A stretch of DNA of 64,000 nt from Roseomonas gilardii (lineage in GTDB: Bacteria > Pseudomonadota > Alphaproteobacteria > Acetobacterales > Acetobacteraceae), in assembly GCF_001941945.1 (NCBI RefSeq), contig NZ_CP015584.1:620001-684000 (forward strand), read 5' to 3'. Position numbers and translations under genes: made by a program. This document shows, in pieces, positions 11,385-22,607 of this stretch; the first letter of the stretch is position 1; the number at the start of each line of letters is the position of its first letter. The notes under the pieces were generated by a model, which searched no databases, had not been told where the DNA came from, and saw only the letters and a program-made list of their open reading frames with translations.

Positions 11385-11401
11385 CATTCCTTTAGGGAAT
11401 G
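11385..11401. promoter_or_regulatory. Putative LysR operator in the divergent promoter
   Basis: The inverted repeat CATTCC-N5-GGAATG lies between the divergent RraA-like and LysR genes, about 43 bp upstream of the LysR start. Size and symmetry fit LysR-type recognition sites. Binding is inferred from position only. Confidence 0.5.
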
Positions 11402-11443
11402 GTATGGACCAGCGGTCGTCTCATGCAGGGGAGTGCCCAGGAC

Positions 11444-12346
11444 ATGCCCACCATCAAGCAACTGGAAGCGTTGCGCTGGATCGTGGCGCTGGGCAGCTTC
11501 GAGAAGGCAGCGGAGCGCCTGCACACCACGCAGTCCGCCATCTCGAAGCGGATCCAGGAGCTGGAAGCCGAGCTTCGCACGCCGGTTTTCGACCGGGCGC
11601 AGCGTAGCTCGCGCCTGACGGCGAAGGGCGAGGCCATCATGACGCTGGCCGAGGAGCTGCTATCGGTGCGCGACCGCATCCTCGCCGTTGGCACCAGCCG
11701 TGCCATCGCGATGCGGCAGTTGCGTTTCGGAGTGACCGAATTGACGGCCATGACCTGGCTTCCTGCCTTCGTCAGCGAGCTGCGCGCCTCCTATCCCAAC
11801 ATCGCACTGGAGCCGGAGGTGGAGATGAGCGCCGACCTCGTGGAATCCCTTCGGAAGGGCAGCCTCGACTTCATTATCGTCCCGGACACCTTCTGGACGC
11901 CTGGCCTGCGGCGCGTGCCGCTGATCAATGTGCAGAATGCCTGGATGTGTAGCCCAGAGCTGTTTCACGACCGTCGCATGCTACCGCTGCGCGAGCTGGC
12001 CCGCTTCAATATCCTGACGCAAGGGCGACGCTCCGGTTCGGGCTTGGTCTTCGGCAAATGGCTCGAGGAGAACGGTGTCGAGTTCCCGCGTCTGCTGACC
12101 AGCAACAGTCTCATGGCCATGGTGGGCCTGACCCTGGCGGCGGTAGGGGTCAGCTACCTGCCGCAGAGTTGCTTCGGTGGCTTGGTGGAACAGGGTAGGC
12201 TGTGGGTCATCTCGACTGACCCGCCGCTCCCCGCAGTCACCTACGCGTTAATGTTTCGCGGAACGGAATCCAGCAACGTCGTCGATTCCCTGGCGAACAT
12301 CGCAAGGTCGACCTGCAATTTCTCGGACCCCATCCGCTGGGCTTGA
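11444..12346 (+). CDS. LysR-type transcriptional regulator
   Basis: This 300-residue protein has an N-terminal winged helix (MPTIKQLEALRWIVALGSFE, then KAAERLHTTQSAISKRIQELE). A type-2 periplasmic-binding-like effector domain follows (about residues 90-295). The ATG at 11444 matches the usual LysR start and has an AGGGGAG-like RBS; the in-frame ATG at 11399 would add a non-homologous leader. It diverges from the RraA/aminotransferase/ABC operon and probably controls it. It also stands 158 bp upstream of the co-oriented MFS/Pxp operon, so control of that operon is possible too. Confidence 0.92.
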   Translation: MPTIKQLEALRWIVALGSFEKAAERLHTTQSAISKRIQELEAELRTPVFDRAQRSSRLTAKGEAIMTLAEELLSVRDRILAVGTSRAIAMRQLRFGVTELTAMTWLPAFVSELRASYPNIALEPEVEMSADLVESLRKGSLDFIIVPDTFWTPGLRRVPLINVQNAWMCSPELFHDRRMLPLRELARFNILTQGRRSGSGLVFGKWLEENGVEFPRLLTSNSLMAMVGLTLAAVGVSYLPQSCFGGLVEQGRLWVISTDPPLPAVTYALMFRGTESSNVVDSLANIARSTCNFSDPIRWA

Positions 12347-12504
12347 GCACCGCCCAGGCGACAGGAGTGTCACGCCGGCACGGCCTGGACCCACTGCCTT
12401 CGGTAAATTATATTCCTAAAAGCGATAATTCAACATGATGATAAATCTCTTTTAATACTGAATGCTCTGTCTTCTGATACGCGCTGATGACGCGAGGAAT
12501 TGTG

Positions 12505-13869
12505 ATGAGGGCCACGCATACCGCTTCGGTTTCGGAACGCCTGGACCGGCTTCCGATCCTGCCGTTCCACAAGAGGATCCTGCTGCTGGTGGGCGCCGGC
12601 CTGTTCTTCGACGCCTTCGACATCTACCTCGCCAATTCGGTCCTGGGCTCGATTGTCCAGAGCGGCTGGTCGACCGTCGAGAAGAATGCCGCCTTCCTGT
12701 CCGCCACGGCCTTCGGCATGCTGATTGGTTCGTTGATGGCGGGCATGCTCGGCGACCGCTACGGCCGGAAGTTCACCTACCAGTTCAACCTCCTCGTCTT
12801 CGGCCTTTCCTCGCTGCTCTGTGCGGTGATGCCGAACATGGAGCTGCTGATCGGTGCGCGCTTCCTCACCGGGATCGGTCTGGGCGCCGAGCTGGTGATT
12901 GGTTACGGCCTGCTCAGCGAGTTCGTCCCGCCGGCCTGGCGTGGCCGCTGGGCGGCGCTGCTCTCCTGCATTGCGCAGTTCGGTCTCTTCGCCGCCACTC
13001 TGATGAGTTGGATCGTGATCCCCACCCTGGGTTGGCGTGCCATGTTCGTCATCGCCGGGATTGGTGGCCTGATCGTTTTCATCGCCCGCAAGAACATTCC
13101 GGAATCGCCGCGCTGGCTGGAAAGGAATGGCCGACAGGCCGAGGCCGACGCGATTGTGGCCCGGATCGAGGCCGAGGCACCGGCCGCCGCCGCCGCCATG
13201 CCGGCGCCACAGCCGGCCGTCAGCCCCGGTGCGGCCGGGATCGGCCCGCTCGATCCGCGCTTCCGCCGGCCGCTCGTGATCGGCGCGATCACGCAGATCG
13301 TGCAGAGCGCCGCGATCTATGGCTTCATCGCCCTGCTGCCCACCTTCCTCGCTCGCCAGGGCATCCCGATCAACCAGTCGCTGGGCCAGTCGGTGCTGAT
13401 GACCCTGGGCGGTCCGGCCGGTGCCATCCTCGCCTACTTCCTCAGCGACCGCATCGGGCGCAAGCCGGCGATCGTCGGTGGCTCGCTGCTCGCCGCCATC
13501 ATCGGTCCGTGCTTCGCCCTGGTGGAATCCCAGGTCGTGGCGACCGCGCTCGGCTTCGTCATGTTCAGCCTCGTCTACTTCCTGGTCTCGGTGATCCAGG
13601 CCGGCTACCTTCCGGAGCTGTTCCCGACCCAGGTCCGCATGCGGCTGACGAGCTGGGCCGTGACCGCGGGGCGTCTCGCCTCGATCGGCATCCCCTTCGC
13701 CTCCGTGTTCCTGGTGCAGGCCGGCGGCATGCTGGCGGTGGTGAGCGGCGTGGCCGTGCTGCTGGTCATCCAGGCCGTGACGATCGGCCTGCTCGCGGTG
13801 GAGACCGGCAGCAGGAGCCTGGAGGCGATCGAGGCGGAAGAGGTAGGCGGAAGCGTGGCCAGCCGCTGA
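12505..13869 (+). CDS. MFS transporter (metabolite:H+ symporter family)
   Basis: This 454-residue protein has about 12 hydrophobic segments. It carries the MFS loop signature GDRYGRKF between helices 2 and 3 and a second SDRIGRKPA in the C-terminal half, with an RFLTGIGLGAE-type helix 4 motif. I chose ATG 12505 because GAGGAA (12494-12499) is well spaced before it; ATG 12487 is possible. It is the first gene of a unit containing biotin carboxylase and 5-oxoprolinase subunits, so it may import the substrate of those enzymes. The specificity is unknown. The AT-rich stretch upstream (about 12390-12480) is the likely promoter. Confidence 0.9.
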   Translation: MRATHTASVSERLDRLPILPFHKRILLLVGAGLFFDAFDIYLANSVLGSIVQSGWSTVEKNAAFLSATAFGMLIGSLMAGMLGDRYGRKFTYQFNLLVFGLSSLLCAVMPNMELLIGARFLTGIGLGAELVIGYGLLSEFVPPAWRGRWAALLSCIAQFGLFAATLMSWIVIPTLGWRAMFVIAGIGGLIVFIARKNIPESPRWLERNGRQAEADAIVARIEAEAPAAAAAMPAPQPAVSPGAAGIGPLDPRFRRPLVIGAITQIVQSAAIYGFIALLPTFLARQGIPINQSLGQSVLMTLGGPAGAILAYFLSDRIGRKPAIVGGSLLAAIIGPCFALVESQVVATALGFVMFSLVYFLVSVIQAGYLPELFPTQVRMRLTSWAVTAGRLASIGIPFASVFLVQAGGMLAVVSGVAVLLVIQAVTIGLLAVETGSRSLEAIEAEEVGGSVASR

Positions 13870-13985
13870 GCGGGCCGCCAGAGCCCCCCAAAGGGAGGGA
13901 TGGCCGGGCGGGCTGGCCCCGCCGGGCAATCCCGTTCCGCCATCCCCGGGGCAGTGCCCCGCCAAGACATCCGAGCGAGAGTGCG

Positions 13986-14438
13986 ATGGACATCGATGAG
14001 ATCAAGACGCTGATCCGCCTCGTGAGCGAGGCGCCCATCGCCGAGCTGGAATACCGAGAGGGCGAGACCAGCGTCAGGATCGTCAGGCACGGTGTGGCAT
14101 CGGCCGGGGAGGCCCCGCCTCCGGCGGCCGGAGCAGCGGCCGATCCCGCCCCCGTCGTCGCCGGCGGCGCATCACCGGGCGGGGTGGATGGCGCGGAGAC
14201 CGCGCCGCATCGCTGCGCGGCGCCGCTGCCCGGACTCTTCTACCGACGCGCCGGCCCCACGGAGCCGCCCTTCGCGGAAGTGGGAGCGGCCGTGGCGGCC
14301 GGCCAAACCCTCGGTCTCATCGAGGCAATGAAGATGCTGACACCGGTCAAGGCGCCGGCGGACGGCGTGGTCCTGCGGATCCTCGCCGAGAATGGCGCGA
14401 TGGTGGACGAGGGCGCGCCGCTCTTCGAGATCGGCTGA
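13986..14438 (+). CDS. Biotin carboxyl carrier protein (AccB-like)
   Basis: This 150-residue protein starts [13 protein letters not shown], as AccB proteins do, then has an Ala/Pro-rich linker (about 38-78). A C-terminal biotinyl domain with EAMKM (biotin-accepting Lys116) follows, and APADG after it. It carries the carboxyl group from biotin carboxylase. It sits 116 bp after the MFS gene and 10 bp before a biotin carboxylase gene. Location among Pxp genes suggests a dedicated carrier distinct from the housekeeping fatty-acid AccB. That distinction is inferred from context only. Confidence 0.9.
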
Positions 14439-14448
14439 GGGCGCATCC

Positions 14449-15840
14449 ATGAGTAATGGCGGAGCAGTGGGCGGCGGGACGGATGGCATGCTGAAACGGG
14501 TACTGATCGCGAACCGTGGCGAGATCGCGCTGCGCATCCAGCGGGCCTGCCGCCTGCTCGGCATCGAATCCGTCCAGGTCTTCTCCGAGGCCGACCGCGA
14601 AGCCCCCTATGTCGCGACCGCCAACCGGGCGCTCTGCATCGGGCCGGCGGCGGCCGCGCACAGCTATCTCAGCATCGACCGGCTGCTGCTGGCCGCGGAA
14701 CTGACCGGCGCCGACGCTGTGCATCCGGGCTACGGGTTCCTTTCCGAGAATGCCGGCTTCGCCCGTGCCCTGGAGGAAGCAGGCCTGGTCTTCGTCGGCC
14801 CGCCCGCCGCGGCCATCGAGACGATGGGCGACAAGATCGCCGCCAAGCGGGCGATGCGCGCCGCCGGGGTGCCGTGCGTGCCGGGCGTGGACGGCGCCCT
14901 GCCGGCCGACGACGCGGCCTGCCGCCGCATCGCCGCGGAAATCGGCTATCCCGTCATCATCAAGGCGGCCGGCGGCGGTGGCGGCCGCGGCATGCGGATC
15001 GTCGAGGCGCCCGATCGGCTGGTCGAGGCCGTCGCCACGACACGGGAGGAGGCCGCCCGGGCCTTCGGCAACCCCGACGTCTACATGGAGAAGTTCCTCC
15101 AAGCCCCCCGCCATGTGGAGATCCAGGTGCTGGCGGACGCGCATGGCAACGCGGTCTGGCTCGGCGAGCGCGACTGCTCGCTGCAACGGCGGCACCAGAA
15201 GGTCGTGGAGGAAGCGCCGGCGCCGGGCATCCCCCGCGCGCTGATCGAGGAGGTGGGCGCGCGCTGCGCTGCCGCCTGCCTCGACATCGGCTATCGCGGC
15301 GCCGGCACCTTCGAGTTCCTCTACGAGGGCGGCGCCTTCTACTTCATCGAGATGAACACGCGTGTCCAGGTCGAGCATCCCGTCACCGAGATGGTGACGG
15401 GGATCGACATCGTCGCCTGGCAGCTCCGTATCGCCTCGGGTCTGCCGCTCGGCTTCACCCAGGCCGAGATCCGGCGCAGCGGCCATGCCATCGAGTGCCG
15501 GATCAACGCCGAGGACCCCTTCACCTTCCGCCCCTGCCCGGGGCGGATCCTCCGCTGGCGGGCACCCGGCGGCCCCGGCATCCGCGTCGAGACGCATGTC
15601 GAGAGCGGCTACTCGGTGCAGCCCTACTATGACTCGATGATCGCCAAGGTGATCGCCCACGGCGCCGATCGGGAAGAAGCCATGGCGCGCCTTCGCGCCG
15701 CCCTGGCCGAGACGCGGGTCGAAGGCATCGCCACCAATATCGCGCTCCACGAGGCGATCCTGGCGGAACCCGGCTTCCGCCAGGGTGGCGTCGGCATCCA
15801 TCACCTGGAGCACTGGCTGAAGGAGCGCGACCATGGCTGA
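14449..15840 (+). CDS. Biotin carboxylase (AccC-like)
   Basis: This 463-residue ATP-grasp enzyme carboxylates biotin on the carrier protein using ATP and bicarbonate. It opens [16 protein letters not shown] and has [10 protein letters not shown], the glycine-rich ATP loop [11 protein letters not shown] (about residue 172) and the catalytic [14 protein letters not shown] (about 300-313). Family length is about 450. ATG 14449 has a GAGGG site upstream; ATG 14488 would begin closer to the conserved region. It overlaps the following pxpB start. No carboxyltransferase AccA/AccD is encoded here, so the carboxyl acceptor may be served by the PxpBC-like proteins. Confidence 0.93.
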
Positions 15841-16498
15841 GGCTCTTCCCCCGCTTCACACCAGTTGGCTGGGCGAAGGCGCCGTGCTCTGCCAGTCCGA
15901 CCCCGCACCGCTGGATACGGCCTTGCAGGAGCGGTTCTGGACCCTGGCGCGGGAGGTCGTCCGCCTCCCCTTCGTGCGCGAGGCGGTTCCGGGAATGAAC
16001 AACCTCCTGCTGGTGATCGACCCCTGTAGCGATGGCGAGGCGGCTGTGGCGGCGATCCGGCACTGCTGGGCCAGCGCCGGCCGCAGTGCCGTGACGGGCA
16101 AGGAGGTGACGATCCCCGTACGCTACGGCGGCACGTCCGGATACGACCTGGCGCATGTCGCCGCCGTGACGGGGCTCTCGCCCGAGGAGGTGGCGCGACG
16201 GCATAGCGCCGGCCGCTATGTCGTCTATGCCCTCGGCAGCCAGCCGGGCTTCGGCTACCTCGCCGGCCTCGATCCCGCCCTCGTCGTGCCGCGCCGCGAT
16301 GTGCCGCGTGTGCGGGTGGAAAGCGGGTCCGTGGTCATCGGCGGCGCGCAGACGGGCGTCATCTCCCGCACCTCGCCCTCCGGCTGGCATGTGATCGGAA
16401 CGACCGACCTGCCCTTCTTCGATCCCGGGGGCGACCCGCCGGCCCTGCTCGCACCGGGCGACATGATCCGCTTCACGATCGAGAGCCTCGCGCCATGA
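15833..16498 (+). CDS. pxpB: 5-oxoprolinase subunit PxpB (KipI family)
   Basis: This 221-residue protein of the KipI/allophanate-hydrolase-subunit-1 family has the conserved [27 protein letters not shown] and the C-terminal GGAQTGV. In the PxpABC complex it forms, with PxpC, the ATP-using part that opens the lactam ring of 5-oxoproline. Its start lies inside the end of the biotin carboxylase gene and its stop overlaps the pxpC start, so all three are coupled. Family identity is clear. The actual substrate in this carboxylase-linked version is open. Confidence 0.92.
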
Positions 16499-17490
16499 CC
16501 GCAGGAACCACCGCGGCAGCCGCGATCGAGATCTTCTCGCCCGGCCCGCTGGCCTCGGTGCAGGATCTCGGCCGCCAGGGCTTCCTGTCCCTGGGCGTCG
16601 GGCGCTCCGGCGCGATGGATCCCCTGGCGCTGGCCATCGCCAACCGGTTGACCGGGAACGAGGCCGGGACCGCCGGCATCGAGTTCACCCTCGGCGGCTT
16701 CGAACTGCGTTTCGGCGTGGATACGGTCTTCGCCCTCGCTGGCGCCGATTGCGCGGCGACGCTCGACGGCTGGGCCGTGCCGCCGATGTGGTGCATGACC
16801 GCGCGGGCGGGACAGGTCCTGCGGGGTGGCGCCCCGCGCATCGGCATGCGCAGCTACCTGGCAGTCTCCGGCGGCTTCGACCTCGCGCCGGTTCTCGGCT
16901 CCGCGAGCACGGATCTCAAGGGCGGCTTCGGCGGCTGGGAAGGCCGCGCCCTCCAACCGGGCGACCGGGTGCCGCTGCGGGCCCGGGGGCAGGCCGCGCC
17001 AGCCTGCGACTGGGGCCTGGCAACGGAGAGCCTGGAGGAACTGTGCGGGCCGGCGGATGCGCCGATCCGCCTCGTCGCGGCGGCGGAGCATGATCTCTTC
17101 GACGAGGCGGCGCGGCAGGCCCTGGTCGAGGCCGAATGGACGGTCCAGCCGGACAGCAACCGCGTCGGCTACCGGCTGGCCGGGCCGGGCCTGACACCCA
17201 CGCGCCGGATCGAGATGCTGTCGCACGGCATCCTGCCCGGCACCATCCAGGTGCCGCCCTCCGGCCAGCCGGTCATCCAGCTCAGCGACGCCAATACCTG
17301 CGGCGGCTATCCGAAGATCGCCGCCGTGATCGGCGCGGATCTCTGGCGTCTCGGCCAGGCCCGGCTGGGCGGCACGCTGCGCTTCACGGTGGTGGAGCGG
17401 GAGGCGGCCGTCACGGCCCTGCGCCGGCAGGTGCTGGCCGCTGAGCGGCTTTTCGCCCGGCTCGACCGGGTCAGGCGGAGCATGGCGTGA
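16495..17490 (+). CDS. pxpC: 5-oxoprolinase subunit PxpC (KipA, biotin-dependent carboxyltransferase family)
   Basis: This 331-residue protein of the KipA/allophanate-hydrolase-subunit-2 family has SVQDLGRQGFLSLGVGRSGA near the N-terminus, GGFELRF, and a C-terminal QLSDANTCGGYPKIA. The fold is shared with the carboxyltransferase part of urea carboxylase, which makes its pairing with biotin carboxylase and carrier protein in this operon notable. It overlaps pxpB by 4 bp. A 36-bp gap precedes the BCCP-like gene. Confidence 0.92.
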   Translation: MTAGTTAAAAIEIFSPGPLASVQDLGRQGFLSLGVGRSGAMDPLALAIANRLTGNEAGTAGIEFTLGGFELRFGVDTVFALAGADCAATLDGWAVPPMWCMTARAGQVLRGGAPRIGMRSYLAVSGGFDLAPVLGSASTDLKGGFGGWEGRALQPGDRVPLRARGQAAPACDWGLATESLEELCGPADAPIRLVAAAEHDLFDEAARQALVEAEWTVQPDSNRVGYRLAGPGLTPTRRIEMLSHGILPGTIQVPPSGQPVIQLSDANTCGGYPKIAAVIGADLWRLGQARLGGTLRFTVVEREAAVTALRRQVLAAERLFARLDRVRRSMA

Positions 17491-17526
17491 CGCCGCCGCA
17501 CGGAACGGAACAGGAGGAGGCGTTGC

Positions 17527-17922
17527 ATGGTTGAGGTGAAGGATATCGCCGGGCTGGCGCGCTTCGCGGCGGCCCATGGGATTGGTGAACTGGTGGTCGA
17601 GGCAAGGGGCCGCCGCATCGACCTCCGGCTCATGCCATCCCTGCCTGGACCGGTCGCGGCAGAGCCACGTGGCCGGTCGGCCGCGATGGCGGTCGCGTCG
17701 CCCTCCATGGGCACCTTCCGGACCGGGCCGGACACGCCCACCCCCGGCACGGCCGTCACCCGGGGCGCGATCCTGGGCCAGATCCAGCTCGGCCCGGCCC
17801 TGCTGGCCGTGCGGTCGCCAGCCGACGGCATCCTGCGGGACGCAGGCATTCCCGATGGGGCGCTGGTGGGCCATGGCGACCGGCTCTTCGAGATCGAACC
17901 GCTGGCGGAGACCACACCATGA
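17527..17922 (+). CDS. Biotinyl/lipoyl-domain (BCCP-like) protein lacking the biotin lysine
   Basis: This 131-residue protein resembles the AccB-like protein upstream in design: a short N-terminal helix region, an Ala/Pro linker and a C-terminal barrel with VRSPADG and GDRLFEIEP. At the place where the upstream paralogue has EAMKM it reads QLGPA, putting Pro90 where the biotinylated lysine should be. It therefore cannot be biotinylated in the usual way. It overlaps the pxpA start by 4 bp and follows pxpC, so it belongs to the operon. It may be a structural or regulatory subunit of a Pxp/carboxylase assembly. That is inference; degeneration of a duplicate is the alternative. Confidence 0.8.
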   Translation: MVEVKDIAGLARFAAAHGIGELVVEARGRRIDLRLMPSLPGPVAAEPRGRSAAMAVASPSMGTFRTGPDTPTPGTAVTRGAILGQIQLGPALLAVRSPADGILRDAGIPDGALVGHGDRLFEIEPLAETTP

Positions 17923-18680
17923 AGATCGACATCAATTCGGATCTCGGCGAAGGCTTCGGCATCTACAGCGCGGCCGATGACGCCGGCATCCTGGCCCTGG
18001 TCTCCTCGGCGAACATCGCCTGCGGCTTCCACGCCGGCGATCCGGTGATCATGGACAGGACCGTCCGCCTCGCGCTGGAACGCGGCGCGGATGTGGGCGC
18101 CCATATCGGCTATGCCGACCGCCAGGGCTTTGGACGCCGGCCCATGAGCATCGACGTCCGCGAGCTGGAGATGATGACGCTCTACCAGCTCGGCGCGCTG
18201 CGGGCGATCGCGGAGGCGGCGGGGCACCGGCTGACGCATGCCAATTTCCATGGCGCCCTCGGCAACCTCTCCTTCGTCGATGCAGAGGTGGCCGAGGTGC
18301 TGCTACGGGCCGTCCGGATCTTCGACCGCGACCTGATCTTCCTGGGCCTGCCAGGTACGGAGGCCGAGAAGGCCGCGGAGCGGCATGGCCTCCGGGTTGT
18401 GCGATCCTTCCTGGCGGATCGCGCCTATGACCGGCAGGGCCTGCTGGTGTCCCGGTCGGTGCCTGGTTCGGTGGTGAAGGATCCCAGCAGGATCCATGAC
18501 CGGATCACCAGGCTGCTCGGCGACGGCACCCTAGAAACCATCGATGGCGGGGTGCTGCGGATGTCGGTAGATTCCATCCTGGTGCACAGCGACACGCCGG
18601 GCGCCGTGCAGCTCGGCGAGACGATACGATCCGCGATCCTGGCAGCAGGGGCGCAGATCACCCCTCTGTCCAGGCTCTGA
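17919..18680 (+). CDS. pxpA: 5-oxoprolinase subunit PxpA (LamB/YcsF family)
   Basis: This 253-residue LamB/YcsF-family protein opens with the signature MKIDINSDLGEGFGIY and has SSANIACGFHAGDP, GAHIGYADRQGFGRR and a C-terminal VHSDTPGA. PxpA holds the lactam-binding catalytic site of the ATP-dependent 5-oxoprolinase PxpABC, converting 5-oxoproline to glutamate. It overlaps the BCCP-like gene by 4 bp and ends the operon. No obvious terminator hairpin follows. The 230-bp gap to the LacI gene is strikingly AT-rich (about 18780-18900). Confidence 0.93.
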   Translation: MKIDINSDLGEGFGIYSAADDAGILALVSSANIACGFHAGDPVIMDRTVRLALERGADVGAHIGYADRQGFGRRPMSIDVRELEMMTLYQLGALRAIAEAAGHRLTHANFHGALGNLSFVDAEVAEVLLRAVRIFDRDLIFLGLPGTEAEKAAERHGLRVVRSFLADRAYDRQGLLVSRSVPGSVVKDPSRIHDRITRLLGDGTLETIDGGVLRMSVDSILVHSDTPGAVQLGETIRSAILAAGAQITPLSRL

Positions 18681-18913: not shown

Positions 18914-19942
18914 TCAGGAGCGTCCTGGTGACGCCGTGGATCGGCGCGGAATGAGGGTAGGGGTCGCGACGCGGATGCGCTCGCCCGTCGAGCCCTGCAT
19001 CATCAGCTCAAGTGCAGCACTCGCGATCTGATCGAAAGGAACGCGCACCGTGGTCAGTGGGGTGGGAAGCCGGCTGACGATCGGGATGTCGTTGTAGCCG
19101 ACCAGCGAGACGTCATCGGGCACGGAGAGGCCGAGCCGAGACAGCGCGGACAAGGCGCCGATGGCCGTGTTGTCGTTGACCGCGAAAATTCCCGTGGGCG
19201 GTTTCGCGAGCCCCATCAGCCTTTCGGTGGCCTCCGCGCCGGAATCGATCCCGAAAGTCGATTCGGACACCAGAAGCCGATCTTCCGGCAGGCCCGCTTC
19301 CCGCAGGGCCTGACGATAGCCGTCCAGACGGCCAAGGCTGCTCGACGCATAGTGCGGGCCCGCGATGATGCCGATGCGGCGGTGGCCGAGATCGATGAGG
19401 TGCCGCGTGGCGAGATAGCCTCCGAGCCGGTCGTCGCCGACCGATGCCAGGCTCCGCCCGTCGCTGCGCAGGGCCAGGACGCAAGGCACGCCGCGCTCCG
19501 CCAGTTCCTGCGCGAAATCGTCCCCTTCCCGCGCGGTGGAGAGAACAAGCCCGTCCACGCCCCGCTGCAGGAGGGCCTGGGCGGCGGCACGGTCAGCCTG
19601 GGGCTCGTCATCGGTCGTTGCCACGATCGCGAAGCGGCCGGAGCGGGTGCAGGCCCGGGCCAGTGCCTCGTAGAGCATGGCCATTACCGTGTCTGTGAGG
19701 CGCGGGACGATGACGCCGATCGTGTTGGTCTGGCCCCGGCGGAGGCTCGCCGCCGAGACGTCGCGGATGTAGCCGAGCTGGGCTGCCACCTGACGGACCT
19801 TCCGGGCTGTCTCGTTCTCCGAGCGGGGAAGGCGCTCGTCCAAGATGCGGGAGACGGTGGACTTCGACACTCCCGCCGCCGCAGCCACATCGAGGATCGT
19901 GACACGTCCGGGCCGCTCCTGGGTCTCATCGTCCTGGATCAT
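18914..19942 (-). CDS. LacI-family transcriptional repressor
   Basis: This 342-residue regulator has an N-terminal HTH and hinge (VTILDVAAAAGVSKSTVSRI, LDERLPRSENETARKV, LGYIRDVSAASLRRG) and a periplasmic-binding-like sugar/effector domain. The start at 19942 was chosen because it gives the usual ~15-residue lead before the HTH; an in-frame ATG at 20011 would overlap the operator. It diverges from the DapA-family lyase/MFS unit. The palindrome GGGAACGTTCCC in the shared promoter (20016-20027) is a classical LacI-family operator. Repression of the lyase operon and itself is therefore likely. The inducer is unknown. Confidence 0.93.
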   Translation of the reverse strand: MIQDDETQERPGRVTILDVAAAAGVSKSTVSRILDERLPRSENETARKVRQVAAQLGYIRDVSAASLRRGQTNTIGVIVPRLTDTVMAMLYEALARACTRSGRFAIVATTDDEPQADRAAAQALLQRGVDGLVLSTAREGDDFAQELAERGVPCVLALRSDGRSLASVGDDRLGGYLATRHLIDLGHRRIGIIAGPHYASSSLGRLDGYRQALREAGLPEDRLLVSESTFGIDSGAEATERLMGLAKPPTGIFAVNDNTAIGALSALSRLGLSVPDDVSLVGYNDIPIVSRLPTPLTTVRVPFDQIASAALELMMQGSTGERIRVATPTLIPRRSTASPGRS

Positions 19943-19984
19943 GCTCAGCCTCTCGAGCCACGTCGGGTTCCCTTCATTTATCGG

Positions 19985-20027
19985 TTGACAGGAACGGCCG
20001 CGCAAGATCATCTATGGGAACGTTCCC
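19985..20027 (+). promoter_or_regulatory. Promoter with perfect LacI-type operator palindrome
   Basis: A consensus -35 box TTGACA (19985-19990) is followed after 17 bp by a weak -10 region (TCATCT, 20008-20013). Immediately after it comes the perfect 12-bp palindrome GGGAACGTTCCC (20016-20027), which would cover the transcription start of the rightward lyase gene. The central CG and full symmetry are typical of LacI/GalR-family operators. Confidence 0.65.
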
Positions 20028-20113: not shown

Positions 20114-21046
20114 ATGGCCATCGACTGGAAGGGGCTGAACCCCGCCCCCGTAACGCTGTTCAAGGACAATGGCGACGTCGACTTCAAGGCGAACGCCCGG
20201 CTCGCCCAGTGGCTGGCCTCGATCCCCGGCGTGAAGAGCCTCGTCATCCTCGGCCATGCCGGCGAAGGCACTTTCCTCACCCACGACGAACAACTGGAGC
20301 TGATCCGGGTTTACAAGGATGCGACGCCGCTTCCCGTGGTGGCCGGCATCACCGGGGAAGGCACCAAGGTCGCGGAGATCGAGGCGCAGAAGAAGTTCGA
20401 TGTCGGCGCGTCGGCCGCTCTGGTCTATCCGAACCATGGCTGGCTGCGCTTCGGCTACCAGAAGGGCGCCCCACAGGACCGCTACAAGGCGATTGCCCAG
20501 TCCGGCCTGGAATGCATCCTGTTCCAGTACCCAGCCGCGACCAAGGCGAACTACGACCTCGACACTCAACTCGAGATCGCCGCCATCCCGGGCGTCACCG
20601 CCACCAAGAATGGCGTGCGCGACATGAAGCGCTGGTACAACGAGATCCCGGCCCTGAAGAACGCCTTCCCGGACCTGGCCATCATGTCCTGCCACGACGA
20701 ATGGCTGTTGCCGACCATGTTCGACGTCGACGGCCTGCTGGTCGGCTACGGCAACATGGCGCCGGAGCTGCTCATCGAGTACCTGGAGGCCGGCAAGGCC
20801 CAGGACTACAGGCTCGCGCGCAAGTACCACGAGCAGCTCCTGCCCATCACCCGGGCCGTCTATCACCGCGGCTCGCACATGGAGGGCTCGGTGGCGCTCA
20901 AGCATGCGCTGCGCGCCCGCGGGCTGATCGACAACGTCAATGTGCGCGAGCCCCTGAAGCCGCTGGGGGACGCCGCCGACGTGGAGATCCGCGCCGCCGT
21001 CAGGGCCTCCGGCCTGACCGTAGTGGAAGAGGCGCTGGCCGCCTGA
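20114..21046 (+). CDS. Dihydrodipicolinate synthase (DapA)-family lyase/aldolase
   Basis: This 310-residue class I aldolase of the DapA/N-acetylneuraminate lyase family has the substrate-binding GHAGEGTFLT, the base tyrosine in FQYPAAT (Tyr139) and the Schiff-base Lys165 in VTATKNGV. Members act on pyruvate or 2-oxo acids, including sugar-acid breakdown products. A LacI regulator and an MFS carrier as neighbours argue for a catabolic aldolase or dehydratase rather than lysine biosynthesis. It starts 87 bp after the LacI-type operator. The next gene on the strand is the MFS gene, after two hairpins. Confidence 0.88.
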   Translation: MAIDWKGLNPAPVTLFKDNGDVDFKANARLAQWLASIPGVKSLVILGHAGEGTFLTHDEQLELIRVYKDATPLPVVAGITGEGTKVAEIEAQKKFDVGASAALVYPNHGWLRFGYQKGAPQDRYKAIAQSGLECILFQYPAATKANYDLDTQLEIAAIPGVTATKNGVRDMKRWYNEIPALKNAFPDLAIMSCHDEWLLPTMFDVDGLLVGYGNMAPELLIEYLEAGKAQDYRLARKYHEQLLPITRAVYHRGSHMEGSVALKHALRARGLIDNVNVREPLKPLGDAADVEIRAAVRASGLTVVEEALAA

Positions 21047-21206: not shown

Positions 21207-22607
21207 ATGCTTATGCAGGCCGATCCACAGTTGATCGACCGTACGGCGGCAAAGACGATGGACGGCCCCGCCGACATCAGTGCCCGCCTCGAGCGCCTAC
21301 CCATCACGCGCAAGGTCTTCTGGACCCGCAACATCGTCGGCGCGGCGACCTTCTTCGATGGCTACACGGTCCTGGCGATCGCCTACGCCATGCCCGTGCT
21401 GGTGCGCGAATGGAGCCTGACGCCCCAGCAGGTCGGCCTGATCCTCGCCGCGGGCTATCTCGGCCAGTTGATCGGCGCGGTGCTTTTCGGCGGCTTGGCG
21501 GAGCGCTATGGCCGGCTGCGCATCCTCTTCTTCACCATCGTCCTCTTCGTTGCGATGGACCTCGCCTGTCTCTTCGCCTGGGGCGCCTGGTCGATGATCC
21601 TGTTCCGCTTCGTGCAGGGCATTGGGACCGGCGGCGAAGTGCCGGTGGCGAGTGCCTATATCAACGAATACATCGGCTCCAAGGGACGCGGACGCTTCTT
21701 CCTGCTCTACGAGGTGATGTTCCTGATGGGCCTGGTGGGGGCGGGCGCGATCGGCTACTTCCTGGTTCCGGTCTATGGTTGGCGGGCGATGTTCATCATC
21801 GGCCTGGTGCCGTCCCTGGTCATGCTTCCCTTGCGCTTCTTCATGTCGGAGTCACCGCGCTGGCTGGCTTCGAAGGGCCGCTACGAGGAAGCCGACCGCA
21901 TCGTCTCCTCGCTGGAGGAAAGCGCGCGGCGGCGCGGGCAGGAACTGCCGCCGCCTGTCCCTGTCGTGGCGCCGGTGCGCAAGGCTTCGGCGGAAGGCTG
22001 GCGGGAGCTGTTCCAGGGCATCTACCTGAAGCGCACCCTGATGATCTGGGCGCTTTGGTTCTGCGCCTATATCGTGGCCAACGGCACGATCACCTGGTTG
22101 CCCACGCTGTACCGCGAAACCTTCCAGTTGCCTCTCCAGACCAGCCTCGGCTACGGCTTCCTGACCTCCTTTGCCGGCGTGGTCGCGGCGGTCATCTGCG
22201 CCCTGCTGATCGATAAGGTGGGACGCAAGCGCTGGTACATCATGGCCTTCGTGGGAGGGGCGGTGCCGCTCCTGGCGCTCTTCGCGATCGGCGCCACGTC
22301 CGCACTCGAGGTTCTCATCCTGGCCGGTCTCGCCTATGCCTGTGTCCAGACGATTACCTTCTCGCTCTACCTGTACTCCGCGGAACTCTATCCGACGCGG
22401 TTGCGGGCGATCGGCACGGGCCTGGGCAGTGCCTGGCTCCGGCTCGGTTCCTCGGCGGGGCCGGTGCTGGCGGGCATGATCATCGGCGGACTCGGCATCC
22501 AGTATGTCTTCGCGGTCTTCGCCGCGGTCCTCCTGGTCGGTGCTTTCATCATGATGGCCCTGGGGATCGAGACCAAGGGTCGCGTGTTGGAAGAGTTGTC
22601 GCCCTAG
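21207..22607 (+). CDS. MFS transporter (sugar/aromatic acid:H+ symporter type)
   Basis: This 466-residue protein has 12 predicted helices. It carries GGLAERYGRLR in the helix 2-3 loop, RFVQGIGTGGEVPVASAYI in helix 4, the post-helix-6 signature FMSESPRWLASKGRYEEA, and DKVGRKRW in the second half. These features fit the sugar-porter/aromatic-acid symporter branch. It lies in the LacI-controlled unit after the DapA-family lyase and probably imports that pathway's substrate, such as a sugar acid. The specificity cannot be read from the sequence. A hairpin follows at 22654-22676. Confidence 0.9.
   Translation: MLMQADPQLIDRTAAKTMDGPADISARLERLPITRKVFWTRNIVGAATFFDGYTVLAIAYAMPVLVREWSLTPQQVGLILAAGYLGQLIGAVLFGGLAERYGRLRILFFTIVLFVAMDLACLFAWGAWSMILFRFVQGIGTGGEVPVASAYINEYIGSKGRGRFFLLYEVMFLMGLVGAGAIGYFLVPVYGWRAMFIIGLVPSLVMLPLRFFMSESPRWLASKGRYEEADRIVSSLEESARRRGQELPPPVPVVAPVRKASAEGWRELFQGIYLKRTLMIWALWFCAYIVANGTITWLPTLYRETFQLPLQTSLGYGFLTSFAGVVAAVICALLIDKVGRKRWYIMAFVGGAVPLLALFAIGATSALEVLILAGLAYACVQTITFSLYLYSAELYPTRLRAIGTGLGSAWLRLGSSAGPVLAGMIIGGLGIQYVFAVFAAVLLVGAFIMMALGIETKGRVLEELSP

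Follow-up and report, generated by a model that had tools for sequence, protein, structure and literature searches.

A conserved lysine-less relative of the biotin carboxyl carrier protein as a probable non-catalytic subunit in proteobacterial carboxylase/5-oxoprolinase-type operons

Organization of the Operon

The window, by which we mean the whole stretch of 64,000 nucleotides of Roseomonas gilardii DNA that was analyzed (contig NZ_CP015584.1, positions 620,001 to 684,000), harbors an operon on its + strand (13986-18680) with the gene order BCCP1, AccC, PxpB, PxpC-like protein, lysine-less protein and PxpA. Its features are the following:

13986..14438, + strand: BCCP1, true biotin carboxyl carrier, 150 aa, with EAMKM and Lys116 (Biotin_lipoyl, 58.8 bits; AlphaFold)
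14488..15840, + strand: AccC-type biotin carboxylase, its start placed at a stretch of 11 protein letters that is not reproduced here (TIGR00514 accC, 650 bits, above cut-off)
15833..16498, + strand: PxpB / CT_C_D subunit, one UCT half (TIGR00370, above cut-off)
16495..17490, + strand: PxpC-like / CT_A_B subunit, one UCT half (304.5 of 500 bits, below the PxpC equivalog cut-off)
17512..17517, + strand: AGGAGG, likely ribosome-binding site of the lysine-less gene (sequence)
17527..17922, + strand: lysine-less BCCP paralogue, 131 aa, with N-terminal helix-hairpin, linker and biotinyl-type barrel (sequence, AlphaFold, profile comparison)
17785..17799, + strand: QLGPA (Q87-A91) at the EAMKM site, with Pro90 aligned to the lysine and Gly89 to the Met before it (sequence, alignment, AlphaFold)
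17866..17877, + strand: VGHG, corresponding to VG[Y/F]G of the family (alignment)
17919..18680, + strand: PxpA (LamB/YcsF), whose start codon shares ATGA with the stop of the lysine-less gene

BCCP1 matches the carrier model TIGR00531 (BCCP) with an E-value of 4.6e-28, below the curated cut-off. At bccp1 the longest open frame (12462-14438, 658 aa) was rejected as an artefact, as it overlaps an MFS gene in another frame, and the carrier start was set at 13986. The AccC of the window is an extra copy, because the genome contains another AccC beside an AccB-type protein elsewhere, and PxpC was found in a single copy by a genome search. Among the curated PxpABC models, those for PxpB and for one PxpA subfamily are matched above cut-off; since the PxpC-like protein remains below its equivalog cut-off, 5-oxoproline is a candidate substrate at most.

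Genes around the operon, assigned by eye, encode a LysR-type regulator (11399-12346) and an MFS transporter (12487-13869) on one side, and a LacI-type regulator (18914-20011), a dihydrodipicolinate-synthase-like protein (20114-21046) and a second MFS transporter (21207-22607) on the other. In related loci the neighbors include a NAC regulator, an aminotransferase, an amino-acid ABC transporter, an SDR and an aldolase/oxaloacetate decarboxylase, which suggests that an amide or lactam derived from an amino acid is catabolized.

A Carrier-Like Protein Without the Biotin Lysine

The lysine-less gene (17527-17922, + strand) is an open frame of 131 codons, its ATG preceded by AGGAGG and its G+C by codon position resembling that of its neighbors, and its product contains GQIQLGPALLAVRSPADG. 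The initial annotation had pointed to an uninterrupted frame overlapping pxpA and to the letters QLGPA at the site where the carrier of the same operon has EAMKM (Lys116). Both observations hold when the ORF is read: the frame of 131 aa is open and ends in the ATGA overlap, and the (E)AMK of a biotin-accepting lysine is absent from the window copy, which has Pro90 at the site.

As a single sequence, the window copy gives a weak match to Pfam Biotin_lipoyl (13.2 bits, cut-off 22.1) and reaches at best 16.6 of 87 bits in NCBIfam, with no family matched at E 1e-3. Its identification as a second biotinyl-domain protein, likewise part of the initial annotation, is confirmed by full-length profile-profile alignment with the carrier and by the barrel of its AlphaFold model. 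The family profiles of the lysine-less protein and BCCP1 align end to end (E 1.7e-27), and the lysine-less profile also matches the E. coli BCCP in the crystal of the BC-BCCP complex (4HR7) over its full length, N-terminal domain included (E 6e-21).

Structure prediction, which the initial annotation had proposed for the complex, was carried out for the lysine-less protein as a single chain and yields a complete BCCP architecture with mean pLDDT 85.8, a barrel at about 95 and an N-terminal helix-hairpin. The models of BCCP1 and of the lysine-less protein are alike, both consisting of a helix and hairpin at the N-terminus that a linker connects to a barrel, and Gly89-Pro90 is placed at the same beta-hairpin turn as Met115-Lys116 of BCCP1. 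With the lysine-less model as query, Foldseek finds BCCP domains (1bdo, TMt 0.82; 2ejf_C, TMt 0.91), in agreement with a biotinyl barrel fold. The thumb loop is shortened in the window copy, with 12 residues vs 17 in most relatives; it is of full length in 47 of 64 lysine-less proteins, the window copy being among those in which it is shortened.

Conservation of the Lysine-Less Family

Relatives were collected by tblastn of plasmids, which found them in rhizobia, Agrobacterium, Bradyrhizobium, Microvirga, Paracoccus, Variovorax and others, and each of the twelve plasmid loci that were read contains a BCCP with EAMK and a second protein without it. As a family probe, a three-sequence profile was dropped, since it retrieved mainly AccB-like carriers, and an alignment of 15 rows offered no stretch conserved enough for a contig scan, so that PxpC was used as the probe. 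The final alignment comprises 64 lysine-less proteins and 62 partner carriers from all loci, including the plasmid loci selected by the trait.

At the aligned site lysine is present in none of the 64 lysine-less relatives, which come from Alpha-, Beta- and Gammaproteobacteria, vs 62 of 62 partner carriers, and thus no orthologue with an intact EAMKM, which the initial annotation had named as the observation that would speak for a simple mutation of this copy, occurs among the 64. Matches to the text "MK" in L069, L073, L122, L126, L127, L129 and L138 were discarded, as they lie outside the aligned site. Proline is the commonest residue at the former lysine site (34 of 64), followed by Gly, Val, Gln and others. 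The aligned sequences show that the missing lysine is not an accident of a single protein.

The family has gained motifs of its own. A glycine precedes the former lysine site in 51 of 64 proteins, and the VG[Y/F]G motif near the C-terminus has its Gly in 61 and its aromatic residue in 60 of 64, where most carriers show an acidic and then a small residue. The Glu and Met of EAMKM are mostly replaced too, and no conserved lysine column exists anywhere in the 64-sequence alignment. The two glutamates that are mostly lost would correspond to Glu119 and Glu147 of E. coli BCCP, which are reportedly important for recognition by BirA.

Between close relatives the dN/dS of the lysine-less gene ranges from 0.19 to 0.63 with a median of 0.28 (BCCP1 about 0.21), the Variovorax pairs being the loosest (0.48-0.63); the window copy was left out of this comparison, as it has no close relative. 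In a maximum-likelihood tree, the lysine-less proteins lie on one side of one branch (SH-aLRT 98), and the same split keeps an SH-aLRT of 97 once four long branches and the diagnostic columns are taken out. A single origin of the lysine-less proteins is therefore likely, for sequences that are short and partly on long branches, that of the window included. Relaxed selection, broken or scattered copies and a lysine in intact relatives, as they would mark a pseudogene, do not characterize this family. The initial view of a domain that is preserved and not decayed is thus sustained by selection, the apparent single origin, the family's own motifs and its strict co-occurrence with a true carrier, and there is good support for the lysine-less protein being conserved and functional as a subunit.

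Co-Occurrence With the Carrier and Gene Order

Scanning genome contigs with PxpC is blind to the lysine, and the 80 loci retrieved in this way were therefore not chosen by the trait. BCCP1 and the lysine-less gene are both present in 49 of these loci, both absent from 28, and cut or decayed in three. AccC is encoded in cis at 45 of the 49 loci, and it is also missing from the 28 loci without the pair, some of which are possibly cut and none of which has a lysine-less copy. No intact operon of the BCCP1 type with the carrier alone or the lysine-less copy alone was found among the 80 PxpC-fetched loci. Two of the three special loci (L105, L131) are cut by contig ends. In the third (L084, 5855-8300, a MAG), the carrier and the lysine-less copy are truncated and AccC is a fragment, with pxpB, pxpC and pxpA open, and thus the carrier, accC and the lysine-less gene have apparently decayed jointly; such shared damage was counted in favor of the subunit model favored below.

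The position of the lysine-less gene varies: it lies behind accC in 29 loci, behind pxpC in 18 and behind bccp1 in four, and the arrangement of the window, between pxpC and pxpA rather than beside accC/bccp, is found in 17 of 51 loci. Where PxpB-PxpC are encoded on the opposite strand, the lysine-less gene stays with BCCP1 in nine of nine loci, a tenth (L100) having been set aside from this count as it has a second pxp set. In four loci no accC is present in cis, and all four keep the pair of BCCP1 and lysine-less gene. One of these pairs is on the complete annotated plasmid of Agrobacterium vitis CG78 (L103 / L180), which has no accC between bccp1 and the lysine-less gene; the related strain VAT03-9 (L066) has one there. 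With the pair kept in CG78, the housekeeping AccC may serve in that strain. Gene linkage thus ties the lysine-less copy to the carrier half of the system, with which it may be in contact. Distance correlations of the Mantel type single out no partner (partial r 0.37 for PxpC, 0.29 for AccC and 0.21 for BCCP1). One genome of the window's family (G019) has two lysine-less copies, one in each of two pxp loci (L002 and L003) that differ in gene order; the contig of L003 matches L081 from Acidisphaera.

Systems of pxp and AccC with a single Lys-bearing carrier and no lysine-less copy occur in Lactiplantibacillus (L178, its carrier being full-length), Halomarina (L159), Rhizobium (L160) and Shinella (L161). 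Those of L160 (2711-6966) and L161 (2706-6966) represent another rhizobial type, with the order pxpA-BCCP-AccC-CT-CT, in which the carrier has 80 aa (VMK) and a lysine-less partner is absent. As these related systems do without it, the lysine-less subunit is not required by the chemistry generally, and the third subunit is particular to one proteobacterial type.

Discussion

The lysine has been lost consistently and the proteins are nevertheless kept by selection, and the lysine-less family therefore probably provides a non-catalytic assembly or regulatory subunit in many proteobacterial carboxylase/5-oxoprolinase-type operons. It would derive, probably once, from a BCCP that lost its biotin lysine and retained the whole BCCP architecture. 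For the protein of the window we consider it rather likely that it belongs, as a non-catalytic subunit, to a split biotin enzyme resembling urea carboxylase, in which it would assemble with BCCP1 and biotin carboxylase. The host enzyme would consist of BCCP1, AccC and PxpB/PxpC and act with PxpA. Assembly would most likely proceed via the BCCP-type N-terminal helix-hairpin and barrel, the lysine-less subunit taking a carrier-like position without biotin, where it would stabilize or space the BC-BCCP subcomplex and possibly tune the number of its biotinylated arms, as plant BADC does in the plastid acetyl-CoA carboxylase. The physical partnership with BCCP1 and AccC is presumed, and of the structural or gating role suggested by the initial annotation, a structural or glue role is what we infer, rather than that of an inhibitor or gate. 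The model is weakened by the gene's place between pxpC and pxpA in 17 of 51 loci, by distance correlations that favor no single partner and by the related pxp-AccC systems that have no such subunit.

As an inhibitor or gate, the lysine-less domain would compete with biotinylated BCCP1 for docking on biotin carboxylase or on the PxpBC carboxyltransferase, and the ratio of the two would throttle the enzyme. The predicted fold, identical in kind to that of the carrier, the full-length homology and the new conserved residues at a turn that would enter an active site all agree with such competition, and inhibition is also the role of BADC in one published model (PMC11926652); however, one-to-one co-occurrence, mostly within one operon, and retention where AccC has been lost in cis fit a stoichiometric subunit better, no separate regulation was seen, and we regard this role as unlikely.

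A subunit of the PxpBC/PxpA half, which would dock on the carboxyltransferase or feed PxpA and be unrelated to BC-BCCP assembly, could be read from the gene's position between pxpC and pxpA in a third of the loci (17/51) and from PxpC having the highest partial distance correlation. Against these stand the loci with PxpBC on the other strand, in all of which the gene stays beside BCCP1, and the 28 PxpB-PxpC loci without BCCP1, which have no lysine-less copy, and such an assignment appears improbable. The family-specific residues in place of the biotin turn might also serve another cargo attached at another residue, or a free ligand bound via the Gly-Pro / VG[Y/F]G face, but no lysine column is conserved in the family and we give this very little credence. 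A decaying duplicate of the carrier gene, as the lost modified lysine, branches longer than the carrier's and the divergent window copy with its shortened thumb might indicate, is hardly credible, being contradicted at the family level by open frames in relatives that all lack the lysine, by a dN/dS well below 1, by the motifs gained and by an apparent single origin across three proteobacterial classes.

The assembly subunit favored here finds its closest counterpart in the plant BADC proteins, noncatalytic subunits of the plastid heteromeric acetyl-CoA carboxylase, which are BCCP homologues without the biotinylation motif and likewise occur together with a true BCCP and with biotin carboxylase as a separate protein (PMC11926652). 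They lack the AMKL motif and serve as glue or, according to other models, as inhibitors, and such subunits are said to exist in the plant enzyme only (PMC11926652). In the window, too, a BCCP homologue without the motif is accompanied by a true BCCP and by a biotin carboxylase encoded separately; unlike BADC, it is bacterial, encoded in an operon and associated with a carboxyltransferase of the PxpB/PxpC kind in a urea-carboxylase/5-oxoprolinase-type system, not with AccA/AccD. The lysine-less gene is not a decayed one, and its product is probably a bacterial form of a subunit type so far known from plants. That it evolved independently of plants, its Gly-Pro turn and VG[Y/F]G loop forming a new interface which positions or gates the real carrier in the split urea-carboxylase-like enzyme, is a tentative but quite conceivable extension. 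Our literature search, which covered few subscription papers, returned no account of lysine-less BCCPs encoded in bacterial pxp operons, which does not prove that none exists.

With bacterial AccB / BCCP (E. coli, 4HR7, 1BDO), the family shares the N-terminal helix-hairpin domain, the linker, the biotinyl barrel and, in most members, the thumb, but it lacks the biotin lysine and has VG[Y/F]G where most carriers have an acidic residue. AccE of some bacterial acyl-CoA carboxylases is also a small noncatalytic subunit, which aids subunit interaction in biotin carboxylase; in contrast to the lysine-less protein, it is described as a helix-containing subunit that takes the place of a BT domain, and not as a relative of BCCP (PMC3199775). 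The PxpABC 5-oxoprolinase and its urea-carboxylase-type relatives likewise combine PxpA, PxpB and PxpC homologues in one operon, to which the window operon adds its own AccC, BCCP1 and lysine-less subunit. The enzyme of the window resembles urea carboxylase with its parts separated into a biotin carboxylase, a carrier and, as the two UCT halves, PxpB/PxpC (PMC3199775).

Database names such as "acetyl-CoA carboxylase" or "biotin/lipoyl-containing" are misleading for the lysine-less proteins. Whether PxpB/PxpC (UCT) homologues work with biotin is described as an open question (PMC3199775); of relevance to it, these homologues are accompanied here by a carrier of their own, by a third subunit and, in most cases, by a biotin carboxylase. 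A conserved bacterial counterpart of BADC in an easily handled six-gene operon would furthermore make the glue-or-inhibitor dispute testable by simple reconstitution.
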